Position numbers and translations under genes: made by a program
Part shown: piece after piece, positions 1 to 12,420 of the stretch
How positions within the stretch are numbered: position 1 is the stretch's first letter
Layout of the letters: each line of letters starts with the position of its first letter
The notes under the pieces: generated by a model
Databases searched by the model: none
What the model was told of the DNA's origin: nothing
Seen by the model: only the letters and a program-made list of their open reading frames with translations
Assembly: GCF_002157685.2 (NCBI RefSeq)
Contig: NZ_AP026738.1
Coordinates: forward strand, 5,704,001 to 5,768,000
DNA from: Comamonas thiooxydans
GTDB taxonomy: Bacteria > Pseudomonadota > Gammaproteobacteria > Burkholderiales > Burkholderiaceae_C
DNA: 64,000 nucleotides
Direction: 5' to 3'

Positions 1-45
1 CAGCAATGCAGCAGCGATAACTACCTGGCGACGAATGTTTTTCAT
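1..45 (-). CDS. N-terminal fragment of an exported protein (partial)
   Basis: Only the first 15 codons are inside the window (MKNIRRQVVIAAALL). They read as the start of a Sec signal peptide: a short positively charged n-region (K, R, R) followed by a hydrophobic stretch. The rest of the gene lies to the left of the window, so the product cannot be named. It follows the VOC gene in the same direction. A Bug-type binding protein or a porin would fit such a catabolic locus, but that is only a guess. No clear Shine-Dalgarno precedes the ATG. Confidence 0.5.
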   Translation of the reverse strand, partial: MKNIRRQVVIAAALL

Positions 46-207: not shown

Positions 208-1167
208 TCATTTCTTGTCGGTCAGGAACTTGCCGTCGGCGGCGCCCACGCCCTTCTGACGCCGGGTATTGCCGTCGAGGCCGCCGTCGATGGCCCATTC
301 GGCAAACACCGTCGGGCCGGGCTCGAACTCGCGCGGCTGCCAGTCAGCCGTGAGCTGGTCCTCGTCTGCGTAGTACTCGACCAAGGCGCCGGCGGGGTTC
401 TTGAAGTACCAGAAGTAGGCCGACGACACCGGATGCCGGCCCGGGCCGAGCTGGGTGTCCCAGCCGCAGCGCGAGATATGCATGCCGCCGCCGAAGACCT
501 CGTGGATATCTCGCACGGTGAAGGCCACATGGTTCAGGCCGGCGTGCCTGTCGGGGCGCTGCAGCAGGAAGATGTCGTGGTGGCCGCCGTCTGGCGCGGT
601 GCGCAGGAAGGCGCCGCGCTCGGGGTAGCGGTCCGAGGCCGCGAAGCCGAAGTTGTCCACATAGAAGCGCTCGCAGGCCTGCACGTCCTTGACGAAGAAC
701 ACCACATGGCCGACCTCGATGGGCTGGGCGCGCTCGTAGGCCGGGCTGGCCTGGTTGATGCGGCCCTTGCGGTCCCAGGTGTTGTACTCGGCGCTGTGCA
801 TCTGCACTTCGCGCTTTTGCGTGAGCTGCAGGCGCACGGCCAGGCCGTTGGGGTCGGTGCAGCCGATGCGGCCATTGCCTTGAACGAAGCCCGGCAGCGC
901 ACGGATGCGGTCCGCATACAGCGCGAGGTCGGCCTCGCCCTGCACGCCCCACACCACTTCGCGCAGCGTGGGGCCAGCCTCGATGGCGGGCGGCAGGCCG
1001 GGGTGGCCGGTGGCGGCCACGACCACGCGGCAGCCGTTCAGCGTTTCGAACACCAGCCGGTCGGCCTCTTCCTGCACCAGCTTCAGTCCCCAGTCCAGGA
1101 AGAACTGGCGGCAGGCCGGCAGGTCGTCGGCGCCGTAGCTGATTTCGTCAATGCCCAGTACGCTCAT
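208..1167 (-). CDS. Two-domain VOC / extradiol dioxygenase-like protein
   Basis: A 319-aa protein with two vicinal-oxygen-chelate repeats, the architecture of type I extradiol dioxygenases and related metalloenzymes. The C-terminal repeat keeps the expected metal triad: His154 (GHVVFFVKD), His213 (LNHVAFTVRD) and Glu264 (ALVEYYAD). The N-terminal repeat is more degenerate, as in the dioxygenase family. Its stop lies against a dispersed repeat, and it is the last gene of the IclR-SDR-ThDP-ALDH-VOC series, 9 bp behind the ALDH stop. A ring-cleavage or other oxygenase role in a catabolic pathway is likely; a non-oxygenase VOC function is possible. The substrate is unknown. Confidence 0.8.
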   Translation of the reverse strand: MSVLGIDEISYGADDLPACRQFFLDWGLKLVQEEADRLVFETLNGCRVVVAATGHPGLPPAIEAGPTLREVVWGVQGEADLALYADRIRALPGFVQGNGRIGCTDPNGLAVRLQLTQKREVQMHSAEYNTWDRKGRINQASPAYERAQPIEVGHVVFFVKDVQACERFYVDNFGFAASDRYPERGAFLRTAPDGGHHDIFLLQRPDRHAGLNHVAFTVRDIHEVFGGGMHISRCGWDTQLGPGRHPVSSAYFWYFKNPAGALVEYYADEDQLTADWQPREFEPGPTVFAEWAIDGGLDGNTRRQKGVGAADGKFLTDKK

Positions 1168-1176
1168 GATCTTTCC

Positions 1177-2652
1177 TTAGTTTGCCCAGGCCAGGGGGTT
1201 TGCGTTCAGGCCCCAGTACAGGCTCTTTTGCTCCATGTACTGCTGGATGCCCATGCGGCCCTTCTCGCGGCCCAGGCCGCTGTCGCGCCAGCCGCCGAAC
1301 GGCGTGGAGATCGAGAACTGCTTGTAGGTGTTGATCCACACGGTGCCTGCCTGCACCGCGCGGCCGATGCGCCATGCGGCCTTGTAGTCGCGCGTCCAGA
1401 TGCCGGCGGCCAGCGCGTAGACGCTGTCGTTGGCCTGCTCCAGCAGCGCCTCTTCGTTGTCGAAGGGCATGGCCACGAGCACGGGGCCAAAAATCTCCTG
1501 CTGGCAGATCTGGTCGGTGTTGCTCACACCTTCGAGGATGGTCGGTCGGTAGTAGTAGCCGCGCTCGTACAACGTGCCCTCGGGGCGGTGGCCGCCGGTG
1601 CGCAGCTGGCCGCCTTCGGACAGGCCCAGGGCCACATAGCTCTCGATGGATTCGCGGTGCTTGGCGGTGATCAGCGGGCCCATCTGCGTGCGCTCGTCGG
1701 CCGGGTCGCCCACGCGCAGCGCGGCGGCCTTGGCCGTGAGGCGCTCCATGAAGTCGCCATAGAGCTTGCGGGCCACGAACAGGCGCGAGCCCGCGATGCA
1801 GGATTCGCCCGAGGAGCTGAAGATGCCGTAGAGCACGCCGTTGACGGCGTGGTCGAGGTCGGCGTCTTCCAGCACCATGGTGGCCGACTTGCCGCCCAGC
1901 TCCAGCGAGACGGGCATCATCTTGTCGGCCGCGATGCGGGCGATATGCTTGCCGGTGGAGGTGCCGCCGGTGAACGACACGCGCTTGACCAGCGGGTGCT
2001 TGGTGATGGCGTCGCCGATCACCGAGCCACGGCCCGGCAGCACGCTGACGATGCCTTTCGGAACACCGGCTTCTTCGCAGATTTTGGCCAGCTCCAGCGC
2101 CAGCAGCGGCGTGGCTTCGGCGGGCTTGACGACCACGGCGTTGCCTGCCGCCAGCGCGGGGGCGAGCTTCTGCGCCTCGCTGGCGATGGGCGAGTTCCAC
2201 GGCGTGATGGCCGCGACCACGCCCATGGGTTCGTACACGCTCATGGTCATGAAGTCACCACGCGAAGGCGTGATGGTCTCTTCCATGGTTTCGCAGGCCG
2301 CCGCGAAGTACTGGAAGGTGCTGGCGGCGCTGGCCACCAGGGCGCGCGTCTCGTTGATCGGCTTGCCGTTGTCGAGGCGCTGCAGCTGGGCCAGCGGCTC
2401 GGCGCGCTCGCGGATCAGCTGGGCCACGCGGTGCAGCACGGCCGCGCGCTCGTGGGGCTTCTTCTGCGCCCAGCCGCTGGTGCGGAACGCATGGTCGGCC
2501 TTCTGGATGGCCTCTTCCACATCGGCCAGGCTGGGCGCGCGCAGGCGGCCCACCACTTCGCCGGTCGCGGGGTAGAGCGTGGCGGATTCGTCGCCGCCGC
2601 CAAGACGCCATTCGCCGGCGATATTGATGGGTAGCAGTTCTAGCTTGGACAT
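1177..2652 (-). CDS. Aldehyde dehydrogenase (NAD(P)+)
   Basis: A 491-aa enzyme of the ALDH superfamily that oxidises an aldehyde to a carboxylic acid. Visible active-site elements are Asn153 (PWN), Glu251 in LELGGKS and the nucleophile Cys285 in GESCIAGSR. The length is typical. The open frame extends about 110 codons further upstream, but MSKLELLP is chosen because GAGGAG lies about 9 bp before it and because the extension would run into the ThDP enzyme gene. It follows the decarboxylase-like gene by 11 bp, which suggests that it removes the aldehyde this enzyme forms. The native substrate cannot be read from the sequence. Confidence 0.9.
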   Translation of the reverse strand: MSKLELLPINIAGEWRLGGGDESATLYPATGEVVGRLRAPSLADVEEAIQKADHAFRTSGWAQKKPHERAAVLHRVAQLIRERAEPLAQLQRLDNGKPINETRALVASAASTFQYFAAACETMEETITPSRGDFMTMSVYEPMGVVAAITPWNSPIASEAQKLAPALAAGNAVVVKPAEATPLLALELAKICEEAGVPKGIVSVLPGRGSVIGDAITKHPLVKRVSFTGGTSTGKHIARIAADKMMPVSLELGGKSATMVLEDADLDHAVNGVLYGIFSSSGESCIAGSRLFVARKLYGDFMERLTAKAAALRVGDPADERTQMGPLITAKHRESIESYVALGLSEGGQLRTGGHRPEGTLYERGYYYRPTILEGVSNTDQICQQEIFGPVLVAMPFDNEEALLEQANDSVYALAAGIWTRDYKAAWRIGRAVQAGTVWINTYKQFSISTPFGGWRDSGLGREKGRMGIQQYMEQKSLYWGLNANPLAWAN

Positions 2653-2663
2653 GGTGAAACTCC

Positions 2664-4358
2664 TCACTGAGCCTTGGTGGTGGCCGGGATCTGGTCCAGC
2701 TTGTTCACCGGAGGGCCCGAGAACGTGGTCTTGAAGCTGCCGATGGCGCGCATGTCGATCTCGAGCAGGAAAGGGCCCTTCTTGCCCCAGGCACCTTCCA
2801 GCACCGCGGGCAGCTCGTCGAGATGGCTCACGCGGGCATGGGGCAGCTTGATGGACGCGCACAGCTGGGCATAGTCGGGCGTGTGCAGTTCCACATAGCA
2901 GCGGCGGCCGCCGTAGGAGGCGTCCTGGATGTTCTGGATCACGCCATAGCGCTGGTCGTTCATCAGCACGATCATGGTGTCGCACTCTTCCTGCACCAGG
3001 GTGGCGAGCTCGCCGAGGTTCAGGATGAAGCCGCCGTCGCCGGCCAGGCCCAGGGTCTTGCGGCCCGAGCCGCTTTCGGCCGCGCCGATGGCCGCACCGA
3101 TGGCCATGGGCATGCCCATGCCGATGCCGCCGCCCGTGGCGTGCACGCCCGCGTTGGACTCGAAGAAGCGCAGTTCGCGGTTGCCCCAGGTGCTGTTGGA
3201 GACGGTCACGTCACGCACCCAGTTGAAGTTGCGGCCCACGGCCTGCTGCAGCTGCTGCACCAGGGCGCTGTACGGGCCCAGGCCGTCGCGCATGGTGGCC
3301 ACGACTTCGTCGTGCACCTGGCGCAGGTCGGCCAGCAGCTCGGGATCGGCCTTGTAGCCGCGCGCTTCCAGGCGGTCGGCCAGGCCGTTCAGGGCCAGGG
3401 CCGAGTCGCCGCAGACAAAGCCGTCATCCATATAGCAGCGGCCTTGCTGGGCGGCGTCCACATCGATGCGCAGCAGCGGGCGCGGCAGCTTGAGTTCGTA
3501 CTTCAGGGTTTCGTTGCTGCGCAGGCGCGTGCCCACGGCCAGCATGGCGTCGCAGCGCTGGTAGAAGGCTTCGACGGGCTTCTGGATGTTGTAGGCGCCC
3601 AGGGATGCGGGATCGTCCTCGGCCACGATGCCGCGGCCCTGGCCGGTGCTCACGATACCGAAGCCCAGGGCCTTCAGACGCTGCACGGCAGCGCCGGCAT
3701 GGCGGGCGCCGCCGCCCAGCCACAGCAGCGGACGCCTGGCCTTGGCCAGCTGCTCGGCCAGCGCGTCGAGCGCGGCTTCGCTGGGCGCCAGCACGGCCAC
3801 CGGCAGCGGTGACAGGTCGGCAGGCATGTCAATCAGCGCCTGCTGGATGTCGATCGGGATCTCCACGCTGACCGGGCCCGTCGGGGCGGTCATCGCGGTC
3901 TGCACCGCGGCCTTGAGCGTGGACAGGCAGGTCTCGGCGCTCAGCACGCGGAAGGCAGCCTTGGAGACGGACTTCAGCATGGTCAGCTGGTCCGGCGCCT
4001 CGTGGATGTACGACAGCTTCTTGTCCAGATACTGGGTCTCGATCTGGCCCGTGATGTGCAAGAGCGGCGTGCCGGCCGTATAGGCTTCCACCAGGCTGCC
4101 GGCGATGTTGCCCGACGCCGGGCCGGTGCTGGTGATGCACACGCCCAGGCTGGAGGTGGAACGCGCGCAGGCGTCGGCCATGTTGCCGGCGCCGGCCTCG
4201 CCACGCGCCATCACGAAGCGGACCTTGCCGCGCGCAAACATGGCATCGAGGATGGGCATGTTGTGGATGGAGATCACCCCGAAGGCAGCCTTCACGTCGC
4301 AATGCTCGAGGAACTCGGCAATGACGGCGCCGACGGTGATTTGATTTTGCTTAGGCAT
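2664..4358 (-). CDS. Thiamine diphosphate-dependent decarboxylase / acetolactate synthase-like enzyme
   Basis: A 564-aa protein of the ThDP-dependent pyruvate decarboxylase / acetolactate synthase superfamily. Glu54 in ARGEAGAGNMADA is the cofactor-activating glutamate of the N-terminal Pyr domain. The C-terminal PP domain has the GDG-(X)24-NDQ signature starting at Gly440, which binds Mg-ThDP. The start MPKQNQ overlaps the SDR stop by 8 bp (ATGCCTAA) and has GGAGG upstream, so translational coupling is likely. No small regulatory subunit gene of the IlvH kind is nearby and an ALDH follows, so 2-oxo acid decarboxylation to an aldehyde is more likely than branched-chain biosynthesis. This role is inferred from context. 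Confidence 0.87.
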   Translation of the reverse strand: MPKQNQITVGAVIAEFLEHCDVKAAFGVISIHNMPILDAMFARGKVRFVMARGEAGAGNMADACARSTSSLGVCITSTGPASGNIAGSLVEAYTAGTPLLHITGQIETQYLDKKLSYIHEAPDQLTMLKSVSKAAFRVLSAETCLSTLKAAVQTAMTAPTGPVSVEIPIDIQQALIDMPADLSPLPVAVLAPSEAALDALAEQLAKARRPLLWLGGGARHAGAAVQRLKALGFGIVSTGQGRGIVAEDDPASLGAYNIQKPVEAFYQRCDAMLAVGTRLRSNETLKYELKLPRPLLRIDVDAAQQGRCYMDDGFVCGDSALALNGLADRLEARGYKADPELLADLRQVHDEVVATMRDGLGPYSALVQQLQQAVGRNFNWVRDVTVSNSTWGNRELRFFESNAGVHATGGGIGMGMPMAIGAAIGAAESGSGRKTLGLAGDGGFILNLGELATLVQEECDTMIVLMNDQRYGVIQNIQDASYGGRRCYVELHTPDYAQLCASIKLPHARVSHLDELPAVLEGAWGKKGPFLLEIDMRAIGSFKTTFSGPPVNKLDQIPATTKAQ

Positions 4359-5151
4359 GACGAGAATGGCCTCCGGAAACGTCGATATGGCTGCCCGTCG
4401 TGTATGACGACAGTGGCGTAGCAAGAAAGAAAATGGCGCGGGCCGCTTCGGCGGGCTTGCCAAGGCGCCCCATGGGGATGTGCTTTGTGCTTGCGAGCGC
4501 GCCGCTCCACTGCTCCCAGGTCTGGCCCTTGTCCTCGCGAGCCTCGAAGCGGCGGCGCCACTGGCCGGACTCGATCAGGCCGACCAGGATGCCGTTGACG
4601 CGTATGCCCTTGGGTGCGAACTCGGTGGCCATGGAACGCACCAGGTTCTTGAGGCCGGCGCGCGCGGCCGAGGTGGCGACCATGTGCGGCTCGGGCTGGG
4701 AGGCCAGCAGCGAGTTCACGCAGACAATGGCCGAGCCTTCGCCGCGCTCGAGCTGGGGCAGAAAGGCGCGCGTGGGATGCAGCACCGAGAAAAACTTCAG
4801 GTGCAGCTCCTCGGTCCAGGCTTCGTCACTGGTGTTCTCGAAGGTGGAGACGCGTCCCTGCCCCGCGTTGTTGATGAGGATGGAAGCCGGGCCCAGGGCC
4901 GCTTCGCTGGCGCGGGCGAACTGCTGCACCTGCTCGGCATCGAGCACGTCGCAGGCCTGTGCGAACAGGCGCGTGCCAGCCTCGGGGTGGCGCTCCAGCA
5001 GCTGCCTTACGGCCTGCTCCAGACGCTCGGGATTGCGGCCGCACAGGGCCACGCGTGCGCCCTGGGCCAGCAGCAGCTCCACCGTGGCCAGGCCTATGCC
5101 AGAAGAGCCGCCGGTGACGACGGCCGTGGCGTCGAGTGTGAAATCATGCAT
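4351..5151 (-). CDS. SDR-family protein lacking the catalytic Tyr/Lys pair
   Basis: A 266-aa short-chain dehydrogenase/reductase fold: TGGSSGIG dinucleotide-binding loop at 13-20, NNAG at 94-97 and the catalytic-type Ser147. At the usual spacing of 13 residues after the Ser, the Tyr of YxxxK is Thr160 and the Lys is Arg164; both codons were checked in the DNA. The protein may therefore be a non-classical oxidoreductase or have another function. It overlaps the upstream IclR gene by 8 bp (ATGCATGA) and the downstream ThDP gene by 8 bp, so it belongs to a tightly coupled operon. Confidence 0.85.
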   Translation of the reverse strand: MHDFTLDATAVVTGGSSGIGLATVELLLAQGARVALCGRNPERLEQAVRQLLERHPEAGTRLFAQACDVLDAEQVQQFARASEAALGPASILINNAGQGRVSTFENTSDEAWTEELHLKFFSVLHPTRAFLPQLERGEGSAIVCVNSLLASQPEPHMVATSAARAGLKNLVRSMATEFAPKGIRVNGILVGLIESGQWRRRFEAREDKGQTWEQWSGALASTKHIPMGRLGKPAEAARAIFFLATPLSSYTTGSHIDVSGGHSRHA

Positions 5152-6016
5152 GGCCGCCTCCTGCGCGCCTTGAAGTGATGGACAGAACCTGCGCGCTGGA
5201 CTGCGGCCGGTAGTTGAGCAGCTCCGACAGTTCGGCGGCCGCCGCGCAGACGCGCGGCACCAGCTCCGTCTGGCGCGCGAGGTCGATCTGGGCCGAGGCC
5301 AGGGTCACCCCAAGGGCTGCGATGACTCGGCCGCTGTGATCGCGCACGGGCGCCGCGATGGTGGAGATCGAGCTTTCGTAGAAGCCCGCACCGGCCACAT
5401 GGCCACGCTCGCGATCGGACTGAACCAGGTCGAAGAGATCGATCACGGTCCTGGGCGTATTGGGCGAATGGCCTTCCAGCTGCTCTTCGGGATAGAGGGC
5501 GCGCAGCTCTGGCAGCGACAGGTCGGCCAGCAGGATGCGACCCAGCAGCGTGGCATGGGCGGGCAGCCGCGTGCCCACACGCACCGAGCTGGTCAGCGGT
5601 GTCGGCGGCGTGACCTTGGCCACATAGACGATGGAGCGGCCGTCGCGCACCACGATGTTGCAGGGGAAACGGATTTCGTCGCACAGCCGCGCGATCACGG
5701 GCTGGCCCAGCTCGGTCAGGTCCATGGAGGACAGGAACTCGAAACCCAGACGCAGCACGGACAGGCCCAGCCGGTAGTCGTTGCCGCCCTCTGCGCGCTG
5801 CAGAAAGCCCATGCTCTCCAGCGTGTTGAGCATGCGAAACACCGTGGCGCGCGGCAGCTGCAGGCGACGTGCCAGCTCGGGAGCACCCAGCGTGGCGTTG
5901 TCGCGGCCGAACTCCTGCAGCAGGCGCAGACCGCGCTCCAGCGCGGGCACCATGTACTTGTCGGCGCCGCCGTCCGGCGCACCACCGGTATCTTCAGGAA
6001 TAGTGGAAGCAGACAT
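5144..6016 (-). CDS. IclR-family transcriptional regulator (first copy)
   Basis: A 290-aa IclR-type regulator. An N-terminal winged helix-turn-helix (about residues 20-80, with LGAPELARRLQLPRATVFRM) is followed by an effector-binding domain containing the family's conserved LPAHATLLGR region. It is the first gene of an overlapping operon (IclR, SDR, ThDP enzyme, ALDH, VOC) and so probably controls that operon and itself. The start is uncertain: MSASTIPED is used, but MNRKLD six codons upstream is equally open and neither has a strong ribosome site. It resembles the second IclR at 10188-10994 over its whole length, suggesting duplication. Confidence 0.87.
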   Translation of the reverse strand: MSASTIPEDTGGAPDGGADKYMVPALERGLRLLQEFGRDNATLGAPELARRLQLPRATVFRMLNTLESMGFLQRAEGGNDYRLGLSVLRLGFEFLSSMDLTELGQPVIARLCDEIRFPCNIVVRDGRSIVYVAKVTPPTPLTSSVRVGTRLPAHATLLGRILLADLSLPELRALYPEEQLEGHSPNTPRTVIDLFDLVQSDRERGHVAGAGFYESSISTIAAPVRDHSGRVIAALGVTLASAQIDLARQTELVPRVCAAAAELSELLNYRPQSSAQVLSITSRRAGGGHA

Positions 6017-6090
6017 ATCCAACTTTCGGTTCATTCCAGCTTGTTGCACCCAAGCCGGAAGCTCCCCCGCTGTATGCACCGTTTCTTTCG

Positions 6091-6173
6091 CCAGAGACAG
6101 CAAGCAAGGGCCGCCCCACAGCGAGGCTGTCGTCCCCCTGGGGGGAAGGCGCGCAGCGACTCAGGGGGCTCTT
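6091..6173 (-). repeat. Dispersed 3'-end-associated repeat, copy 2
   Basis: This is the second copy of the GC-rich element, ending 6 bp before the stop codon of the SDR gene that begins at 6180. Pairable TCCCCC and GGGGGA arms lie in its middle. The flanks match copy 1 closely (CAGAGACAGCAAGCAAGGGC at one end, GCGACTCAGGGGG at the other). Confidence 0.75.
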
Positions 6174-6179
6174 CATTTT

Positions 6180-6956
6180 TCAATTCATGACGAAGCCGCC
6201 GTTGACGGGCAGGACCTGCCCCGTCACGAAGCGCGCACCGTCCGACAACAGATAGGACACGGCACCCGAAACATCCTCTGGCCCTTGCTCACGCTGCAGC
6301 GCGCGCTGGTCGATGTAGAGGCGATGACGGTGCTCGGGCACGTACTCGGTGGCCTCGACCAGAACCAGGCCCGGAGCCACGGCATTGATGGTGATGGCAT
6401 CCGCGCCCAGCTCGCGCGCCATGGAGCGCGTCATGGCCATCACGGCGCCCTTGCTGGCCACATAAGCCATCAGATTGGGGGCGCCCCACATGGCGGTGTC
6501 GGAAGCCAGATTGACGATGGCGCCGCGCCCGCTGTCCTTGAGCGCCGCACGGCAGGCACGGGTCATCAGCCAGACGCCGCGCACATTGACGTTCATCACC
6601 TGATCCCATTTTTCCAGGGCGATGTCGTCCATACCCTTGCCGCCGGAGTCCGTCACGGCCGCGTTGTTGACCAGGCCATCCAGACCGCCGAGCGTCTGCA
6701 CGGCCTGCTGTGCGCACTGTTCTATGGAAGCCGGGTTGCTCGCATCAAAGGCGACGCCGTGAGCCTCGAAGCCCATGGCACGCAGCTTGGCAACTGCTTC
6801 GCTCAGCAATTCGGCGCGCAGATCGGCCAAGACGAGCCGCGCCCCCTGCTGGCACAGCGTCTGCGCAAAAGCAAAACCCAGGCCGCGCGCAGCGCCGGTG
6901 ACAAGGATCCGGCGCCCAGCGAGCTGACCGGTGGAAGGCATGGTGTTGAGGGTCAT
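6180..6956 (-). CDS. SDR-family NAD(P)-dependent oxidoreductase
   Basis: A 258-aa classical SDR. It has the TGAARGLG cofactor loop near the N-terminus, a NNAA motif, and the catalytic triad residues Ser (NLASDTAMW) and Tyr/Lys (AYVASKGAV). In contrast to its neighbour at 4351-5151, the catalytic tetrad is intact, so this is the locus's likely working alcohol/ketone oxidoreductase. MTLNTMPS is taken as the start, with AAGG about 8 bp upstream; MPSTG, five codons on, is an alternative. It lies behind its own upstream region with inverted repeats and is separated from the IclR gene by a dispersed repeat, so it is probably its own transcription unit. Confidence 0.88.
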   Translation of the reverse strand: MTLNTMPSTGQLAGRRILVTGAARGLGFAFAQTLCQQGARLVLADLRAELLSEAVAKLRAMGFEAHGVAFDASNPASIEQCAQQAVQTLGGLDGLVNNAAVTDSGGKGMDDIALEKWDQVMNVNVRGVWLMTRACRAALKDSGRGAIVNLASDTAMWGAPNLMAYVASKGAVMAMTRSMARELGADAITINAVAPGLVLVEATEYVPEHRHRLYIDQRALQREQGPEDVSGAVSYLLSDGARFVTGQVLPVNGGFVMN

Positions 6957-6971
6957 CTTAAACCTTGTTTG

Positions 6972-7008
6972 TTTCAAATATGAAATGACACTTTTTTCTT
7001 GAAACAAG
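6972..7008 (-). promoter_or_regulatory. Inverted repeats upstream of the SDR gene (candidate operator)
   Basis: TTTCA-N4-TGAAA (6972-6985) lies 16 bp before the SDR start, and CTTG-AAA-CAAG (6998-7008) lies just upstream. IclR-type regulators bind short AT-rich palindromes of this size. Binding by either local IclR is an inference. Confidence 0.35.
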
Positions 7009-7087
7009 CCTGCAGTTTAGTGAGCCTTGTTTTGAGTCAATACCCGGAGAAACCCGTAGTCAGCACACCACAGCGACATACGGGCGT

Positions 7088-7111
7088 AAAAAAACCGCGA
7101 CAAGCGCGGTT
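7088..7111 (-). terminator. Rho-independent terminator of the nucleosidase gene
   Basis: A 7-bp perfect stem (AACCGCG / CGCGGTT, loop of 5) is followed on the minus strand by a run of seven T. It lies about 160 bp behind the stop codon at 7273. Confidence 0.7.
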
Positions 7112-7272
7112 GAAAGGAAAACGGAGCAACAAAAGGTATCCGGCCCGCAGTTGTCGGCAGGCTGGATCAGAAGTCATCAGTACCAATAGCTTATAGCGCC
7201 TATCAATGAATGAGCTCAGGTTTAAAACACCCTAAAACTCATATTTATCAATCGCTTACAGCTATTAAAAGA

Positions 7273-8031
7273 TTAGCAAACAGTCTGCTTTTTCGCGGGC
7301 GTCAGGCGCAGAAAGTCCAGCACCACGCGTTGCGCGTAGCGGCTTGCCACCGTGCGCACGAAATCCGAAAAATCCACATGGGCGCTGTCGTCCGCCCGGT
7401 CCGAGATGGTGCGCATTGCGGTAAATGGCGTGCCGTAATCCAGGCAGGTCTGGGCCACGGCAGCGCCCTCCATCTCCACGGCCAGCACGGCATGGCCGGC
7501 TGCCTCCAGATCGGCTCTGAGTTGTGCGCTGGCCTGGCGCGAGCTGACAAACTGATCGCCGCTGGCAATCAGGCCCTCATGGACGCAGGCCGAAGCATAT
7601 GAAGCCACGATGCCCGAGCGCAGCGCCGAGTCTGCGGCCTGCACCAGTCGGTCCGTCGCCGCCTCGTCGCAGGCCAGGGTGCTGCGGCCGTAACCGGGCA
7701 ATTGCCAGCGCGGAAAGATCGGCGAGGCATCCATGTCATGCTGCAGGAAAGTCCGCGCGATCACCACATCGCCCACGTTCACGTCGGCGCCGATGCCGCC
7801 AGCCACGCCGGTGAACAGAATGCCGCGCACGCCAAAGCGCTCGATCAGCGCGGCGGTGGTGGTGGCAGCGGCCACCTTGCCGATGCCCGACAACGCGCAC
7901 ACCACCTCGTGGCCATGCAGCCGGCCCAGCCAGAAATCGCGCCCGGCATGGCGCAGGCATTGCATGTCCTGCATGGCGTCGACCAGGCCGTGTTGTTCTT
8001 CGGCAAGAGCGCTGAGAATGGCAAGCGTCAT
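7273..8031 (-). CDS. mtnN: 5'-methylthioadenosine/S-adenosylhomocysteine nucleosidase
   Basis: A 252-aa cytosolic hydrolase of the PNP/UDP phosphorylase fold that cleaves adenine from methylthioadenosine and S-adenosylhomocysteine. Diagnostic segments are the N-terminal ILSALAEE, GIGKVAAATTTAALIERF, the FTGVAGG loop and VEMEGAAVAQ, whose Glu binds the ribose; SDRADDS carries the catalytic-type Asp. MTLAILSALAEE is used as the start, with GGAG upstream; the frame extends further but the family begins here. It has its own terminator. The gene is housekeeping in the SAM cycle and may have no link to the neighbouring catabolic genes. Confidence 0.9.
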   Translation of the reverse strand: MTLAILSALAEEQHGLVDAMQDMQCLRHAGRDFWLGRLHGHEVVCALSGIGKVAAATTTAALIERFGVRGILFTGVAGGIGADVNVGDVVIARTFLQHDMDASPIFPRWQLPGYGRSTLACDEAATDRLVQAADSALRSGIVASYASACVHEGLIASGDQFVSSRQASAQLRADLEAAGHAVLAVEMEGAAVAQTCLDYGTPFTAMRTISDRADDSAHVDFSDFVRTVASRYAQRVVLDFLRLTPAKKQTVC

Positions 8032-8079
8032 GGATGGGGGTACTCCGGAACATGGGCCAGGCGGCCCTGGTGAAAGCAC

Positions 8080-8102
8080 AAAAGCGGCACAGGGCCGCTT
8101 TT
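8080..8102 (-). terminator. Terminator behind the Bug binding-protein gene
   Basis: A perfect 9-bp stem (AAAAGCGGC / GCCGCTTTT, loop of 5) lies 38 bp behind the stop codon at 8140. It separates the Bug gene from the nucleosidase gene. Confidence 0.7.
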
Positions 8103-8139
8103 GTGGGAAGCGCAAGAGGCGCGATTAGAGCATGGCGGT

Positions 8140-9138
8140 TTACTGCGCCACGATATTGTGGCTCTTGACCACGGGCGCCCACAGCGCGGTCTCCTTGCGG
8201 ATCAGCTCGCCAAAGGCATCGCCCTTGACCACCCAGGGGGTCATGCCCTGGGCCTTGAGCTGGTTCTGCGCGGCCTGGGTCTTCATGACCTTGTCGATGT
8301 CCTCGGCCAGCTGCTTGACCACTTCGGGCGGTGTGTTCTTCGGAGCCAGCACGCCATACCAGGACGAAACGGCAATACCCGGAACACCAGCCTCGGCCAG
8401 TGTCGGCACATTGGGCAGGAAGCTCGAGCGCGTGGCATCGGTCACGGCCAGGGCGCGCAGCTTGCCCGACTGCACATGGGGCAGCACGGTGGGCATGTTG
8501 GCGATCAGCATGGGGATGGTACCGCCCAGGGCATCGTTCAGGCCCTGTCCCGAGCCCTTGTAGGCCACGTGCATGATGTCGGCACCCGACTTGTCCTTGA
8601 ACAACTCGCCGGCCAGGTGCAGGCTGGAGCCCACGCCGGGCGAGGCATAGCTGATCGAATTGGGCTTGGACTTGGACAGGGCCACCAGCTCCTGGATGGT
8701 CTTGGCCGGCACCTGCGGATTGACGACGATGACATTGGCCGCACGCCCCATGGAGGCCACGGGCACGAAGTCGCCGAACACGTTGTAGGGCAGCTTGGGC
8801 ATCAGCGTGGGATTGATGGTCAGGTTGCCCTGAGGCACGACCAGCAAGGTATGGCCGTCGGGCTTGGCGCGCTTGACCATGTCGATGCCGATGTTGCCGT
8901 TGGCACCGGGGCGGTTGTCGACGATGGAGGCCTGCTTGTACTCCTCGGTCAGGCCTGTGGCCAGGATGCGGGACAGGATGTCCACCGCGCCGCCGGCGGG
9001 GAACGGCGCAATGATGGTGAACTGACCGCTGGACAGCTGTTCGGCGGCACTGGCAGCGAAGGCCGGGGACATGGCGGCGGGCAGCGCAGCGGTGCAGGCC
9101 AGCGCCAGGCAGGACTTGAGGAAGGCGGAACGTTGCAT
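8140..9138 (-). CDS. Tripartite tricarboxylate transporter (Bug family) substrate-binding protein
   Basis: A 332-aa periplasmic binding protein. A signal peptide (about residues 1-28, MQRSAFLK ... AFAAS) precedes a mature part with family motifs such as APFPAGGAVDILSRILA, VDNRPGANGNIG and SYASPGVGSSLHLAGE. AGGAGA lies about 11 bp upstream of the ATG. Bug proteins bind small carboxylates, amino acids or aromatic acids. No TctA/TctB membrane genes lie in the window, so it probably uses a distant permease, as is common in this family. As the last gene of the cupin/hydrolase/IclR/AspDH series it may bind the substrate of the pathway. Confidence 0.9.
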   Translation of the reverse strand: MQRSAFLKSCLALACTAALPAAMSPAFAASAAEQLSSGQFTIIAPFPAGGAVDILSRILATGLTEEYKQASIVDNRPGANGNIGIDMVKRAKPDGHTLLVVPQGNLTINPTLMPKLPYNVFGDFVPVASMGRAANVIVVNPQVPAKTIQELVALSKSKPNSISYASPGVGSSLHLAGELFKDKSGADIMHVAYKGSGQGLNDALGGTIPMLIANMPTVLPHVQSGKLRALAVTDATRSSFLPNVPTLAEAGVPGIAVSSWYGVLAPKNTPPEVVKQLAEDIDKVMKTQAAQNQLKAQGMTPWVVKGDAFGELIRKETALWAPVVKSHNIVAQ

Positions 9139-9344
9139 GGTCTTGTCTCCTGGGAGAACGGAAATTTCAAAAAGGCTAAATGCCGATGCGCATCAGGCTT
9201 GATGCAGCGCAAAGGCCGGCGGGCAAAGACCTGACACCATGGATGCCATGCTCAGATGGGCGGTGCTTGCGCGCATTTTTGCAAGCACGCAAGCAAGACC
9301 GATGCCACCGGCACGGCACATGGCTGGAACGGGTCAGTACCGGG

Positions 9345-10145
9345 TTAGATGGCCAGGGAAGCCACGTTGTTGAGCACGGCGCGCACCACGCTGTACACGG
9401 TCAGCGCCGATGTCTTGGGGTTGGCCGCCAGCGGCTTGCCGCGCATGGTCAGCTCCATGGCGCCGAAAGCGCCGCGCGCCTCGACGTGGTGCACGTTTTC
9501 ATCGACGGCCGGGTCGGCGAAAAGGCGCACCATGGTCTTGTCCAGGCCCAGGCCCGCCAGCGACAGCGTGGCCGCCACATTGGCATTCTTGGGATAGAGC
9601 TGGGCCGCCTCGCGGGCCGTGCCTTCAAAGATGCAAAAGGCTTCGGTCAAGGCCTCCAGATCGCAGACTTGCTCGGCCGGAGTGCCGCTCCAGGCTCTGG
9701 GCGGCTTGCGGCCCGTGTAGACCACCGTGTCCAGTCCGCCGACACGCGCCGCCGCCAGGGCATCAATGCCGCCGATGGCGCCCGACAACAGCTGGGCCTG
9801 CGTCTTGCCAGCCTCGGCCGCAGCCTGTACGCGCTCGGCCATGCCCGGCGCGCTCAAAGCGCCTATGGATGCGATGACCGCAGGAATGCCGCGCGCCAGG
9901 GCCGGCAGCACATGCTCCTCGATGGCTGCGTGACCCGCGCATTCCACCAGCAGATCCGGCACCGCGTCAGCGGGCAAGGCCTGCAGCAGCTGCGCCTGTG
10001 GCGCCAGGCGGGCAGCCGTCTCGCGCACGGCTGCCGTAATCTCGGGAACCAGTACCCAGCCCACCTGCAACCGGGTATCTCCGCTCAAAAGCTCCAGAAC
10101 ACTGGAGCCAATCGCGCCGCAGCCAATCAAAGCAATATTTTTCAT
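9345..10145 (-). CDS. Aspartate dehydrogenase-type NAD(P)-dependent enzyme (NadX/DUF108 family)
   Basis: A 266-aa protein. The N-terminal Rossmann motif GCGAIGSS (residues 8-15) is followed by a C-terminal domain with GAIGGIDAL and the PKNANVAATLSLAGLG region characteristic of L-aspartate dehydrogenases. AGGAGG sits about 9 bp before the ATG. Characterised members oxidise L-aspartate to iminoaspartate/oxaloacetate with NAD(P)+. No nadA or nadC gene is nearby and a catabolic set surrounds it, so a degradative role on aspartate or another amino acid is more likely than NAD synthesis. It follows the second IclR gene by 42 bp. Confidence 0.85.
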   Translation of the reverse strand: MKNIALIGCGAIGSSVLELLSGDTRLQVGWVLVPEITAAVRETAARLAPQAQLLQALPADAVPDLLVECAGHAAIEEHVLPALARGIPAVIASIGALSAPGMAERVQAAAEAGKTQAQLLSGAIGGIDALAAARVGGLDTVVYTGRKPPRAWSGTPAEQVCDLEALTEAFCIFEGTAREAAQLYPKNANVAATLSLAGLGLDKTMVRLFADPAVDENVHHVEARGAFGAMELTMRGKPLAANPKTSALTVYSVVRAVLNNVASLAI

Positions 10146-10187
10146 CTCTAGCCTCCTGAAAAATGCGCTGGCCCGGCGTGATCGGGG

Positions 10188-10994
10188 TCAGCGCAAATGG
10201 TCCGGGTGCTGCTGGCGCAAATGAGCGGACAGAGTCTCTGCCGCCTCCTGCACCTTCTGCACCCAGAGTTGGGTTTTTTCGGGCCCCAACTCGGTAAACG
10301 GAATGGCCATGGCCAGCCCCGCTACCACCCGCCCGTCTGCGGCGCGCACCGGCGCTGCAATACTGGAAACGCCAGGCTCGTAAAAGCCCTCGCCCATGGC
10401 ATAGCCACGCTCGCGATCCTCGGCCAGCAGGCGCAGCAGCTCGTCGATATTGCGCGGCGTGCTCTCGGAGAACTGGGGCAGTTCCTCGCCGCCAAACACC
10501 GAGCGCAGCTGCGCGGCATCCATGTCATGCAGCAGGGCTCGTCCCAGCACCGTCGCGTGCGCCGGCAGACGCGATCCCACGCGCACAGCGCCCTGGAATG
10601 CTCCGGACGGAGTGACGCGTGCCACATAGACCACGGAAGTGCCGTCGCGCAATGCAAGATTGCTGGTCATGCCCAGCTCCTCGCACAAGGCCTGCAGCAC
10701 AGGCTCGGCCAGTTGCGCCAGCGGCTGGGTGGACAGGTAGTCATAGCCCAGGCGCAGCACGGCCAGACCGAGCCGGTATTCGGTTCCGCTGCGCTGCAGA
10801 TACCCCGAGTTTTCAAGCGTGGTCAACATGCGAAACACCGTGGAGCGCGGCAGCTCGAGGCTGCGCGCCAGCTCGGGCGCACTCCAGACCGGCTGCGCCG
10901 GACCAAAGCAGGCCAGCAGGCGCAGTCCTCGATCCAGAGCTGGCACGGTGTAACGATCTTGTTCGTTGGTTGAAATCTCAGGGGTTTCGCTCAT
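10188..10994 (-). CDS. IclR-family transcriptional regulator (second copy)
   Basis: A 268-aa IclR regulator with an N-terminal winged HTH (SAPELARSLELPRSTVFRMLTTL) and a C-terminal ligand-binding domain containing LPAHATVLGRALL. It is collinear with the IclR at 5144-6016, sharing the PALxRGLRLL start, the HTH and the LRLG segments. Unusually it lies inside an operon, 5 bp behind the hydrolase stop and 42 bp ahead of the AspDH gene. The two IclR copies probably respond to related effectors of one pathway. No strong ribosome site is seen, so its translation may depend on the upstream gene. Confidence 0.88.
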   Translation of the reverse strand: MSETPEISTNEQDRYTVPALDRGLRLLACFGPAQPVWSAPELARSLELPRSTVFRMLTTLENSGYLQRSGTEYRLGLAVLRLGYDYLSTQPLAQLAEPVLQALCEELGMTSNLALRDGTSVVYVARVTPSGAFQGAVRVGSRLPAHATVLGRALLHDMDAAQLRSVFGGEELPQFSESTPRNIDELLRLLAEDRERGYAMGEGFYEPGVSSIAAPVRAADGRVVAGLAMAIPFTELGPEKTQLWVQKVQEAAETLSAHLRQQHPDHLR

Positions 10995-10999
10995 AGCAA

Positions 11000-11878
11000 T
11001 CAGCTGGTATTAGGGCAATAGCTTTGGTTCAACAAAGATGCCAGCCTATGCGCGACCTCCATTGGTTGTTCCACGGGTGAAGCATGACCGGCAGCCGCAA
11101 GCGTACCGTAGTGCGCGCCCAGCATTTCGGACCAGGACTTGCAAGCTGCAGGTGTAGTCACGACATCGTGCTCGCCGACCCAAACCTCGACCGGCATGCC
11201 AAGCCTGCCCCGTGCCTGTGCCAGATCGCTGCCGCAAAGCAGCTCGACCGCCTGCGCATAGCCCTGCGGCTGCATGCGCGCCGTATTCCAGCGCACCCAT
11301 GCACGCACGGCTTCAGGAGCCTCGGAGGACACCAGGCGCTGATCGATGACGGCCGCCAGACCGGCGACACCCTTCTCGGCCAGCGAAGCCAGACGACCCT
11401 CGCGCACCTTGGCCTGCTGCTCGGCCTTGGCTGGGGCGCCGTAGCCGCCTGCCGGACTGATGAGCACCAGTTGCTCGACCAGTCCTGGTGCGGCCATGGC
11501 AGCCAGCCTGGCTGCCATCAGGGCGCCCAGCGAGTGTCCGACCAGCATGCAGCGCCGCACGCCCAGCACAAGCAGCGACTGGGCCAGCGTCTGCGCATAG
11601 TCGGCATCGGCAGGCGCCGGCTGGGCCAGCGGCGTCGACACGCCATAACCGGGCGCATCCCAGGCCAGGACACGCACTTTGTCAGCCAGCTGCAGCGCCA
11701 CATCCAGCCAGGATGCAGCCCCGGAGCTGATGCCATGCAGCAGCACCACCGCGAAATCGGAGCCGGCGTCGCCTGCCTCGCGCCAGGCGACCTGGGCCTT
11801 CTGCGGAAGCTTCACCAGCCGCTCGGGAAAACCGGTCTGCAGCTGCTGCAGTTTCAGCGACAGCAAATCCTCGTGCAT
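11000..11878 (-). CDS. Alpha/beta-fold hydrolase
   Basis: A 292-aa alpha/beta hydrolase. The oxyanion motif LLHG (47-50), nucleophile elbow GHSLGA with Ser116, acid Asp238 (VGEHD) and His265 (AAGHASPVEQP) form a complete triad. The frame extends 29 codons upstream into the cupin gene; MHEDLLS is chosen because it starts 8 bp behind the cupin stop. Hydrolysis of a meta-cleavage product, ester or lactone would fit the VOC and cupin genes of the locus, but the sequence alone does not identify the substrate. Confidence 0.85.
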   Translation of the reverse strand: MHEDLLSLKLQQLQTGFPERLVKLPQKAQVAWREAGDAGSDFAVVLLHGISSGAASWLDVALQLADKVRVLAWDAPGYGVSTPLAQPAPADADYAQTLAQSLLVLGVRRCMLVGHSLGALMAARLAAMAAPGLVEQLVLISPAGGYGAPAKAEQQAKVREGRLASLAEKGVAGLAAVIDQRLVSSEAPEAVRAWVRWNTARMQPQGYAQAVELLCGSDLAQARGRLGMPVEVWVGEHDVVTTPAACKSWSEMLGAHYGTLAAAGHASPVEQPMEVAHRLASLLNQSYCPNTS

Positions 11879-11886
11879 GACAAAGC

Positions 11887-12420
11887 TCAGCGCTTGATCT
11901 TGGCCAGAGGATGCTCGGGTGGATAGGTCGGGGTGACGGGCTTTTTGGCGCCCAACATCACGCACATCAGCGCATCCTCATCACCGACATTGATCTCTTC
12001 GCGGTAGACGCCGGGCGGCACCGAAACCACATCGCGATCGGTCAGGATGGTCTCGAAACGCTCGCCGTCCTTTTCCAGCACCAGCTTGAGCTTGCCGCGC
12101 ATCACGAAGAACACTTCCTCCACATCGGTGTGCAGATGCGAAGGGCCTTCATGGCCGGCGGGAATCACCATGGTGGAGAAGGTGAAGTTCTCCGACGGAA
12201 TGGTGTTGCTGTCGGAGGCCACGCCCGTGCCGCCCGTGCCGATGTAACGCATCTGGCCGCGGCGGTATTTGGGATCAAAGTCGGCCTGGAACTTCAGGGC
12301 ATCGAAGTCGTACTTGCGCGTGGCAAAGCGCGCAATGCGTGTGCTCATCCAGTCTTCAAAGCTGGAGCCCTCGGGGCGATCCCAAGTACGGGCGCTGTTG
12401 TCTTGTGCGATCTCGCTCAT
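11887..12420 (-). CDS. Cupin-domain protein
   Basis: A 177-aa single-domain cupin. Motif 1 is present as HLH at 95-97 with Glu101/102 (HLHTDVEEVFFVMRG). In motif 2 (PPGVYREEIN) the usual metal-binding His is Arg140. AGGAGA precedes the ATG. It is the first gene of the second operon, so its upstream region should carry the operon's promoter. The role could be isomerase, lyase or dioxygenase. The missing fourth ligand argues against a standard 3-His/1-Glu dioxygenase site. Confidence 0.8.
   Translation of the reverse strand: MSEIAQDNSARTWDRPEGSSFEDWMSTRIARFATRKYDFDALKFQADFDPKYRRGQMRYIGTGGTGVASDSNTIPSENFTFSTMVIPAGHEGPSHLHTDVEEVFFVMRGKLKLVLEKDGERFETILTDRDVVSVPPGVYREEINVGDEDALMCVMLGAKKPVTPTYPPEHPLAKIKR

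Follow-up and report, generated by a model that had tools for sequence, protein, structure and literature searches.

A conserved catabolic gene cluster with an aspartate dehydrogenase in Comamonas thiooxydans, and kynurenate as its candidate substrate

We analyzed a catabolic locus around an aspartate dehydrogenase (AspDH) gene at one end of a 64,000-nucleotide stretch, here called the window, of the single-contig genome (5.91 Mb) of Comamonas thiooxydans (contig NZ_AP026738.1, or C1; the window is C1:5704001-5768000). Open reading frame and domain searches found all the genes that a first-pass annotation had named there, all of them on the minus strand. The genes are listed below by window position, or by contig position where they lie past the window's edge.

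208..1167, minus strand: VOC family protein, type I extradiol dioxygenase (PF00903; H154, H213 and E264 in 30/30 aligned sequences)
1177..2652, minus strand: aldehyde dehydrogenase, ALDH (PF00171; C285, E251 and N153 invariant in 29 rows)
2664..4358, minus strand: thiamine diphosphate (ThDP) enzyme (three TPP domains; NF005470, a model without function, 895 bits, cut-off 495)
4351..5151, minus strand: SDR1, a non-canonical short-chain dehydrogenase/reductase (SDR) (NF005468, 450 bits; Thr160/Arg164 for Tyr/Lys in 30/30)
5144..6016, minus strand: IclR1 regulator (PF09339, PF01614)
6180..6956, minus strand: SDR2, a canonical SDR (S152, Y165 and K169 in 32/33 rows, with one gap)
7273..8031, minus strand: methylthioadenosine/S-adenosylhomocysteine (MTA/SAH) nucleosidase (NF004079 above cut-off)
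8140..9138, minus strand: Bug/TctC binding protein, proposed uptake (PF03401)
9345..10145, minus strand: AspDH (PF03447 and PF01958; NF009827, 476 bits, cut-off 226)
10188..10994, minus strand: IclR2 regulator (PF09339, PF01614; 50% identity to IclR1)
11000..11878, minus strand: alpha/beta hydrolase (PF12697; S116, D238 and H265 invariant in 32 rows)
11887..12420, minus strand: cupin (PF07883; H95, H97 and E101 invariant)
1..45, minus strand: second Bug gene (Bug2), start only, the rest outside the window
C1:5701659-5702684, minus strand, outside the window: Rieske oxygenase subunit (70% identity to the Variovorax counterpart)
C1:5700703-5701662, minus strand, outside the window: reductase with a 2Fe-2S domain
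C1:5699588-5700652, minus strand, outside the window: porin
C1:5698167-5699507, minus strand, outside the window: major facilitator superfamily (MFS) transporter

Past the VOC gene, Bug2, the Rieske oxygenase, the reductase, the porin and the MFS transporter continue in this order and in the same direction, so the end of the locus at position 208 is the edge of the window and not a biological one. Two 8-bp overlaps, among three genes, were confirmed (ThDP/SDR1, 4351-4358; SDR1/IclR1, 5144-5151), as was the paralogy of the two IclR regulators, which extends over 246 residues. The MTA/SAH nucleosidase and the Bug/TctC gene sit between the two blocks of catabolic genes and were absent from the first-pass annotation.

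The nearest named relatives are found in Comamonas, with 95% identity for the AspDH in C. testosteroni (records closest to the window's genome were possibly left out). An AspDH query gave 40 loci in named genomes, on which the gene counts per locus are based. The hydrolase is present at all 40, followed by the cupin (39), SDR2 (38), the ThDP enzyme and SDR1 (37 each), ALDH (36) and the VOC protein (35), and the Rieske subunit is seen at 24; four of these loci (L006, L009, L013 and L035) end at contig ends. Twelve of the 16 loci without the Rieske gene are of the Comamonas/Delftia type, and in a longer stretch of the window's own genome this gene lies just past the VOC gene. At one locus (L012, Delftia sp. 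PS-11) the second block is not there in the approximately 9 kb past the nucleosidase.

Most of the same enzymes (Rieske oxygenase, canonical SDR, VOC, non-canonical SDR, ThDP, ALDH, hydrolase, cupin and AspDH) are clustered in Variovorax, Cupriavidus, Burkholderia, Caballeronia, Klebsiella, Acinetobacter and alphaproteobacteria. The layout in two blocks with two IclR regulators was seen in Comamonas, Delftia, Paracidovorax and a single Burkholderiaceae metagenome-assembled genome (MAG); Variovorax and its relatives have a single run. This run, in the order SDR2-cupin-hydrolase-IclR-SDR1-ThDP-AspDH-ALDH-VOC, was found in Variovorax, Ramlibacter, Xylophilus, a Rubrivivax MAG and an Alcaligenaceae MAG. 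The annotations available for Klebsiella, Acinetobacter and Caballeronia place a Rieske ferredoxin and alpha subunit, SDRs, the VOC protein and a FAD-dependent reductase in one cluster, together with the cupin, hydrolase, AspDH, ALDH and ThDP enzyme. In Novosphingobium the set lacks an annotated ferredoxin and, within the stretch seen, SDR2. Between Comamonas and Klebsiella the Rieske subunits share 56% identity and the companion SDRs (SDR2) 57%, with unrelated reductases, so the electron supply has been swapped and the oxygenase retained.

Co-occurrence was also measured in a phylum sample of 398 genomes (thresholds: ThDP, E<=1e-120; VOC, E<=1e-40; AspDH, E<=1e-15), in which the ThDP enzyme is found in 15 genomes, the VOC protein in 14 and AspDH in 41. 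All 15 ThDP genomes have AspDH, compared with 26 of the 383 without the ThDP enzyme (Fisher p ~1e-16, shared ancestry ignored), so the genes co-occur elsewhere far beyond chance. The VOC protein is above the threshold in nine of the 15 ThDP genomes, and in the other six a divergent VOC (26-35%) lies near the ThDP gene; five genomes of the sample with a VOC match and no ThDP enzyme contain VOC relatives of 31-36%. In the order sample, 14 of 389 genomes have the VOC protein (E<=1e-85). All eight further cluster genomes tested contain the Rieske subunit, six on the cluster contig and two on another contig. In three alphaproteobacterial-type genomes, the genes for the Rieske subunit, SDR2 and a longer cupin protein lie together at a distance of 10-11 kb from the ThDP gene; this cupin gene product has about 318 residues and resembles two cupin domains (L198, 2403-3359). 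VOC relatives sharing 31-38% identity served as an outgroup, although two loci from that group, L123 and L124, are still rows of the VOC alignment; read in context, both are accompanied by fumarylacetoacetate hydrolases.

This distribution bears on whether a single pathway is encoded at all, or two or more small operons held together by shared habitat or gene transfer. The two Comamonas blocks with one IclR regulator each would suit separate operons, as would the varying content of several loci and Comamonas genome G082, which keeps AspDH and the nucleosidase without the rest. Similar sets nevertheless recur across several orders with differing gene orders, and there are the 8-bp overlaps and the single runs; we consider separate operons improbable. 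The idea of one catabolic locus, proposed before from the window alone, is borne out by co-occurrence in other genomes: the locus is conserved, real, catabolic and, as far as our literature search reached, unassigned.

Ten proteins of the locus inside the window, all but IclR1 and the Bug protein, were compared with NCBIfam, the best 25 models being considered where the lists were long. Among the matches listed, models above cut-off name a function for AspDH and the nucleosidase only, those for the ThDP enzyme and SDR1 carry no function, and no model reaches the cut-off for the VOC protein, ALDH, SDR2, IclR2 or the hydrolase. None of the NCBIfam models listed matched the cupin or the Rieske subunit. 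AspDH belongs to its family by both its NAD-binding and Asp_DH_C domains and its score above the curated cut-off, with H219 kept in the 31 rows that have a residue at that position. The VOC protein has the 2-His-1-Glu pattern of a type I extradiol dioxygenase in its C-terminal half, with H154, H213 and E264 presumably acting as metal ligands; the roles of the conserved residues in the hydrolase, ALDH, Rieske subunit and AspDH are likewise assumed from their families. The Rieske subunit keeps C63, H65, C82, H85, H175 and H180 (31 rows, gaps excluded). Among solved structures, PDB 3b59 is nearest to the VOC protein; it has a generic name only and could belong to the same dioxygenase group.

The two SDRs differ in their active sites. 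SDR2 is a classical SDR with Ser and Tyr-xxx-Lys, and the Klebsiella SDR to which it is 57% identical adjoins a Rieske gene. SDR1 is not, as T160 and R164 stand where Tyr-xxx-Lys is expected in all 30 sequences, which suits, without proving it, a reaction other than alcohol oxidation. By far its nearest solved structure is 3lf1, 'Short Chain Oxidoreductase Q9HYA2' (408 bits; the next has 121), a protein that we take to be PA3507 of Pseudomonas aeruginosa. This lends some support to the parallel drawn earlier with the AspDH locus near PA3505 of that species, which presumably holds the same gene types. Relatives of the hydrolase include 3kxp (among the best 60 of 89), which we take to be the enamide hydrolase of vitamin B6 breakdown. 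The cupin keeps its first metal motif but has Arg, in 28 of 32 rows read by eye, at the expected His of the second; a role as 3-hydroxyanthranilate dioxygenase was considered for it and dropped, the similarity being marginal only (E about 0.04-0.08).

Genes adjoining the cluster in other genomes hint at the substrate. Six replicons carry, at most 10 kb from the VOC gene, a molybdenum hydroxylase of the xanthine-dehydrogenase family: pNK84 of Caballeronia NK8 and, with copies 60-65% identical to that one, replicons of Ramlibacter, Variovorax paradoxus ISL-3 and genomes G328, G524 and G560. The count covers 55 VOC loci, whose flanks were often short, and two of the replicons showed part of the gene only. 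Homologues of 62% occur away from the cluster in the window's genome, C. testosteroni ATCC 11996 and Variovorax 770b2. Enzymes of this family hydroxylate N-heteroaromatic rings, among other substrates, and their presence near the VOC gene points to an N-heteroaromatic substrate; the nearest structures are mixed, the top one being 4-hydroxybenzoyl-CoA reductase and the fourth quinoline 2-oxidoreductase. Beside the VOC gene at 18 of the 40 AspDH loci, and at several other loci, there is a flavin hydroxylase with 57% identity to an alphaproteobacterial copy whose nearest structure is 6-hydroxynicotinate 3-monooxygenase (NicC-like). That a flavin hydroxylase replaces the Rieske oxygenase at L127-L129 was considered and dropped, since at all three the Rieske gene was found on the same contig, 10-11 kb from the ThDP gene; we therefore regard the flavin hydroxylase as an optional extra.

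These neighbors probably reverse the direction in which the pathway had been read. The first-pass annotation had placed AspDH first, on a route from an amino acid through a 2-oxo acid and an aldehyde to an acid. With a Rieske oxygenase in the locus and a molybdenum hydroxylase alongside in some genomes, the pathway more likely starts from a bicyclic N-heteroaromatic acid, and AspDH suits its end. In a route starting at AspDH, an amino acid would be deaminated, the ThDP enzyme would decarboxylate the product (with aspartate as substrate, oxaloacetate to malonate semialdehyde), ALDH would oxidize the aldehyde and the ring enzymes would serve a different substrate. Such a route would explain why ThDP, AspDH and ALDH are mutually adjacent in many loci and why in Novosphingobium their block is separate from VOC and Rieske, but it sits poorly with a VOC, close or divergent, beside or near the ThDP gene in 15/15 ThDP genomes of the phylum sample, with the Rieske subunit in 8/8 genomes tested and with three loci (L165, L167 and L170) that keep the ThDP enzyme without AspDH. 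We give it little credence. The other part of the original suggestion, ring opening by VOC and hydrolysis by the hydrolase, fits the gene content.

A bicyclic acid whose breakdown resembles this gene set is kynurenate (4-hydroxyquinoline-2-carboxylate). The classical route, from the 1960s, leads from kynurenate through the 7,8-dihydrodiol and 7,8-dihydroxykynurenate to 5-(3-carboxy-3-oxopropenyl)-4,6-dihydroxypicolinate, whose propenyl side chain is converted to the propyl form and then to the 2-formylethyl and 2-carboxyethyl compounds. Classical studies are those of Dagley and Johnson, Rosenfeld and Feigelson, Behrman, and Taniuchi and Hayaishi. EC 1.14.99.2, 1.3.1.18 and 1.13.11.10 are entries of this branch, and we know of no gene attached to them. 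By predicted function, the gene set matches the route with one enzyme class per step: Rieske oxygenase, canonical SDR, VOC, second SDR, ThDP enzyme and ALDH. With modest confidence, we propose that the locus probably serves to take up kynurenate, or a closely similar quinoline-2-carboxylate, and to degrade it completely, AspDH acting last and not first. The names of 7,8-dihydroxykynurenate and of the oxopropyl and carboxyethyl compounds occur in PMC10543884, PMC11364965 and PMC13188826, the last of which puts the carboxyethyl compound within tryptophan metabolism. In the open-licence literature, we found no paper giving these genes to a bacterial kynurenate route.

The proposed steps are as follows. 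The Rieske oxygenase and its reductase would form kynurenate 7,8-dihydrodiol, which SDR2, as a dihydrodiol dehydrogenase, would convert to 7,8-dihydroxykynurenate. The VOC dioxygenase would open the benzene ring to give 5-(3-carboxy-3-oxopropenyl)-4,6-dihydroxypicolinate, and SDR1 would act as an ene reductase on the side-chain double bond. The resulting 2-oxo acid would be decarboxylated by the ThDP enzyme to the formylethyl compound, and ALDH would produce 5-(2-carboxyethyl)-4,6-dihydroxypicolinate. The hydrolase, perhaps with the cupin, may hydrolyze the remaining pyridine ring to iminosuccinate (2-aminofumarate), probably with glutarate; on paper this would be hydrolysis at C4-C5 and of a lactam, 2-aminofumarate being a tautomer of iminosuccinate. 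AspDH would then reduce iminosuccinate to L-aspartate; without it, iminosuccinate could decay to oxaloacetate and ammonia. The hydrolase and AspDH are the classes left over for these last steps, and the relatives of the hydrolase include the enamide hydrolase 3kxp. The IclR proteins would provide regulation, and the Bug proteins, porin and MFS transporter would take up the acid. In genomes with an adjoining molybdenum hydroxylase, quinaldate may enter as kynurenate, and in those with the NicC-like flavin hydroxylase, xanthurenate may enter. A 2-oxoquinoline 5,6-dioxygenation route was set aside, as by chemical reasoning it would release no C4 imino acid.

The same upper steps would suit another fused aromatic acid, whether a quinoline- or isoquinoline-carboxylate or a nitrogen-free bicyclic compound, with AspDH in a peripheral role such as nitrogen balance. 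These steps fit any such acid, the solved structures closest to the Rieske subunit form a mixed group, and AspDH is missing from some loci and occurs without the cluster in 26 of its 41 genomes in the phylum sample, which have no ThDP enzyme. We nevertheless judge such an acid a less probable substrate, as most loci seen have AspDH inside the cluster, in many cases flanked by ThDP and ALDH, and the molybdenum hydroxylase and NicC-like neighbors indicate nitrogen rings. By our reasoning, moreover, we know of no other common substrate that yields a C4 imino acid.

Several observations weigh against kynurenate as the substrate, beginning with these 26 AspDH genomes and with Comamonas G082, which retains AspDH without the ThDP enzyme or the VOC protein. 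A SDR serving as an ene reductase is unusual, and the cupin fits no clear step. Tryptophan dioxygenase occurs in 18 of 28 cluster genomes, compared with 93 of 364 phylum-sample genomes, and genome size and ancestry confound the excess (9/14 versus 84/350, p 0.002, taking the 364 genomes to be all among the 398). No general linkage to kynurenine genes was seen: a single one of the 28 genomes (G208, ~11 kb) showed tryptophan dioxygenase near its cluster, and in the others it is on other contigs or far off, as far as draft genomes could be resolved. In the window's genome it lies about 1.16 Mb from the locus. The end products also differ, since Horibata et al. 1961, by its title as cited in PMC11354673, names glutamic acid, and we propose aspartate and glutarate.

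Incomplete loci are a further difficulty. The order sample added seven loci (L165-L171), two of them on contigs of 8 kb or less. At the locus itself, L165 (G524) lacks AspDH, both SDRs, the hydrolase and the cupin; L166 (G560) lacks SDR1 and the hydrolase; L167 (G729) lacks AspDH; L169 (G565) lacks SDR1 and ALDH; and L170 (G406, an 8 kb contig) lacks SDR1, AspDH and ALDH. ALDH is also missing from the alphaproteobacterial locus L131 (G059). L171 is complete, and L168 (6 kb) is too short for judgement. The VOC protein is present at all seven, and the full-length ThDP enzyme and the Rieske subunit are present at six, L168 having a piece of the former and none of the latter. Loss of AspDH would be bearable, since by its chemistry iminosuccinate should hydrolyze by itself; loss of SDR1 in some loci is harder to explain.

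If the kynurenate assignment is right, three further points might follow, which we put forward tentatively as a set: the bacterial kynurenate pathway would gain its missing genes, with at least three orphan enzymes, the non-NadB AspDHs would be natural iminosuccinate reductases that recover the final nitrogen-containing piece of kynurenate, and SDR1 would be an ene reductase that has lost the Tyr/Lys pair. Judged from the genes, the last step of kynurenate breakdown is a likely job for AspDH. In PMC5554190, active L-aspartate dehydrogenases from Delftia sp. Cs1-4 and K. pneumoniae 34618 are reported to have 65% and 42% identity to the R. eutropha enzyme (ReuAspDH); for the cluster AspDHs of these two genera, Delftia and Klebsiella, the values against the Cupriavidus campinensis AspDH are 65.5% and 42.1%. 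By this match of identities the published enzymes are probably cluster enzymes, though the strains differ. They were handled there for amino-acid production, and the terms 'operon' and 'gene cluster' occur 0 times in that paper's text.

Compared with known systems, the locus is most like the kynurenate (quinoline) branch of tryptophan breakdown, with enzyme classes that agree step by step, including side-chain decarboxylation and aldehyde oxidation on a dihydroxypicolinate; it differs from that branch in that the activities here are inferred from genes and the proposed end products are not the glutamate of the 1961 title. Homoprotocatechuate (Hpa) meta-cleavage shares a VOC protein that is distantly HpaD-like and an ALDH that is distantly HpaE-like, but their scores are far under the curated cut-offs, and the Hpa route is not known to need the Rieske, ThDP and AspDH genes present here. 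Vitamin B6 and nicotinate catabolism share relatives of the hydrolase (similar to 3kxp), the flavin hydroxylase (similar to NicC) and SDR2 (near pyridoxal 4-dehydrogenase); in these routes, no fused benzene ring is known to be opened by a Rieske oxygenase together with a VOC enzyme.

If true, the proposal would supply genes for a pathway of the 1960s and a reason why AspDH genes lie in catabolic operons, and the genomes of bacteria living in soil or associated with plants or humans would reveal the use of kynurenic acid, a by-product of tryptophan. As this acid has signaling roles in animals and is present in plants (PMC11354673), its consumers would matter for gut and root microbiomes.

Some minor features were also recorded. 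The MTA/SAH nucleosidase is probably a bystander and was rejected as a pathway gene, since among the 40 AspDH loci it is confined to those of the Comamonas/Delftia type and is kept in G082 without ThDP or VOC. In this genome (L146) the nucleosidase, AspDH and FadD are still together, and the ThDP enzyme and VOC protein are absent from the genome. A partial second cluster on pNK84 of Caballeronia sp. NK8 (L125) has a Rieske ferredoxin and alpha subunit, a ThDP enzyme, a VOC protein, a molybdenum hydroxylase and XdhC; in its 29 kb, AspDH, ALDH and hydrolase of these families were not detected at the thresholds used. The tryptophan dioxygenase of the window's genome (L069, C1:4540.8-4548.0 kb) is near frames that, by eye, resemble formamidase, kynureninase and an amino acid permease. 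Finally, a protein of about 100 residues (HTH_62, PF20552) directly precedes the Rieske subunit in many loci (for example, L059, 11020-11328, and L067, near 17713), and in the window's own genome a short HTH_62-like match (38%) lies between Bug2 and the Rieske gene.

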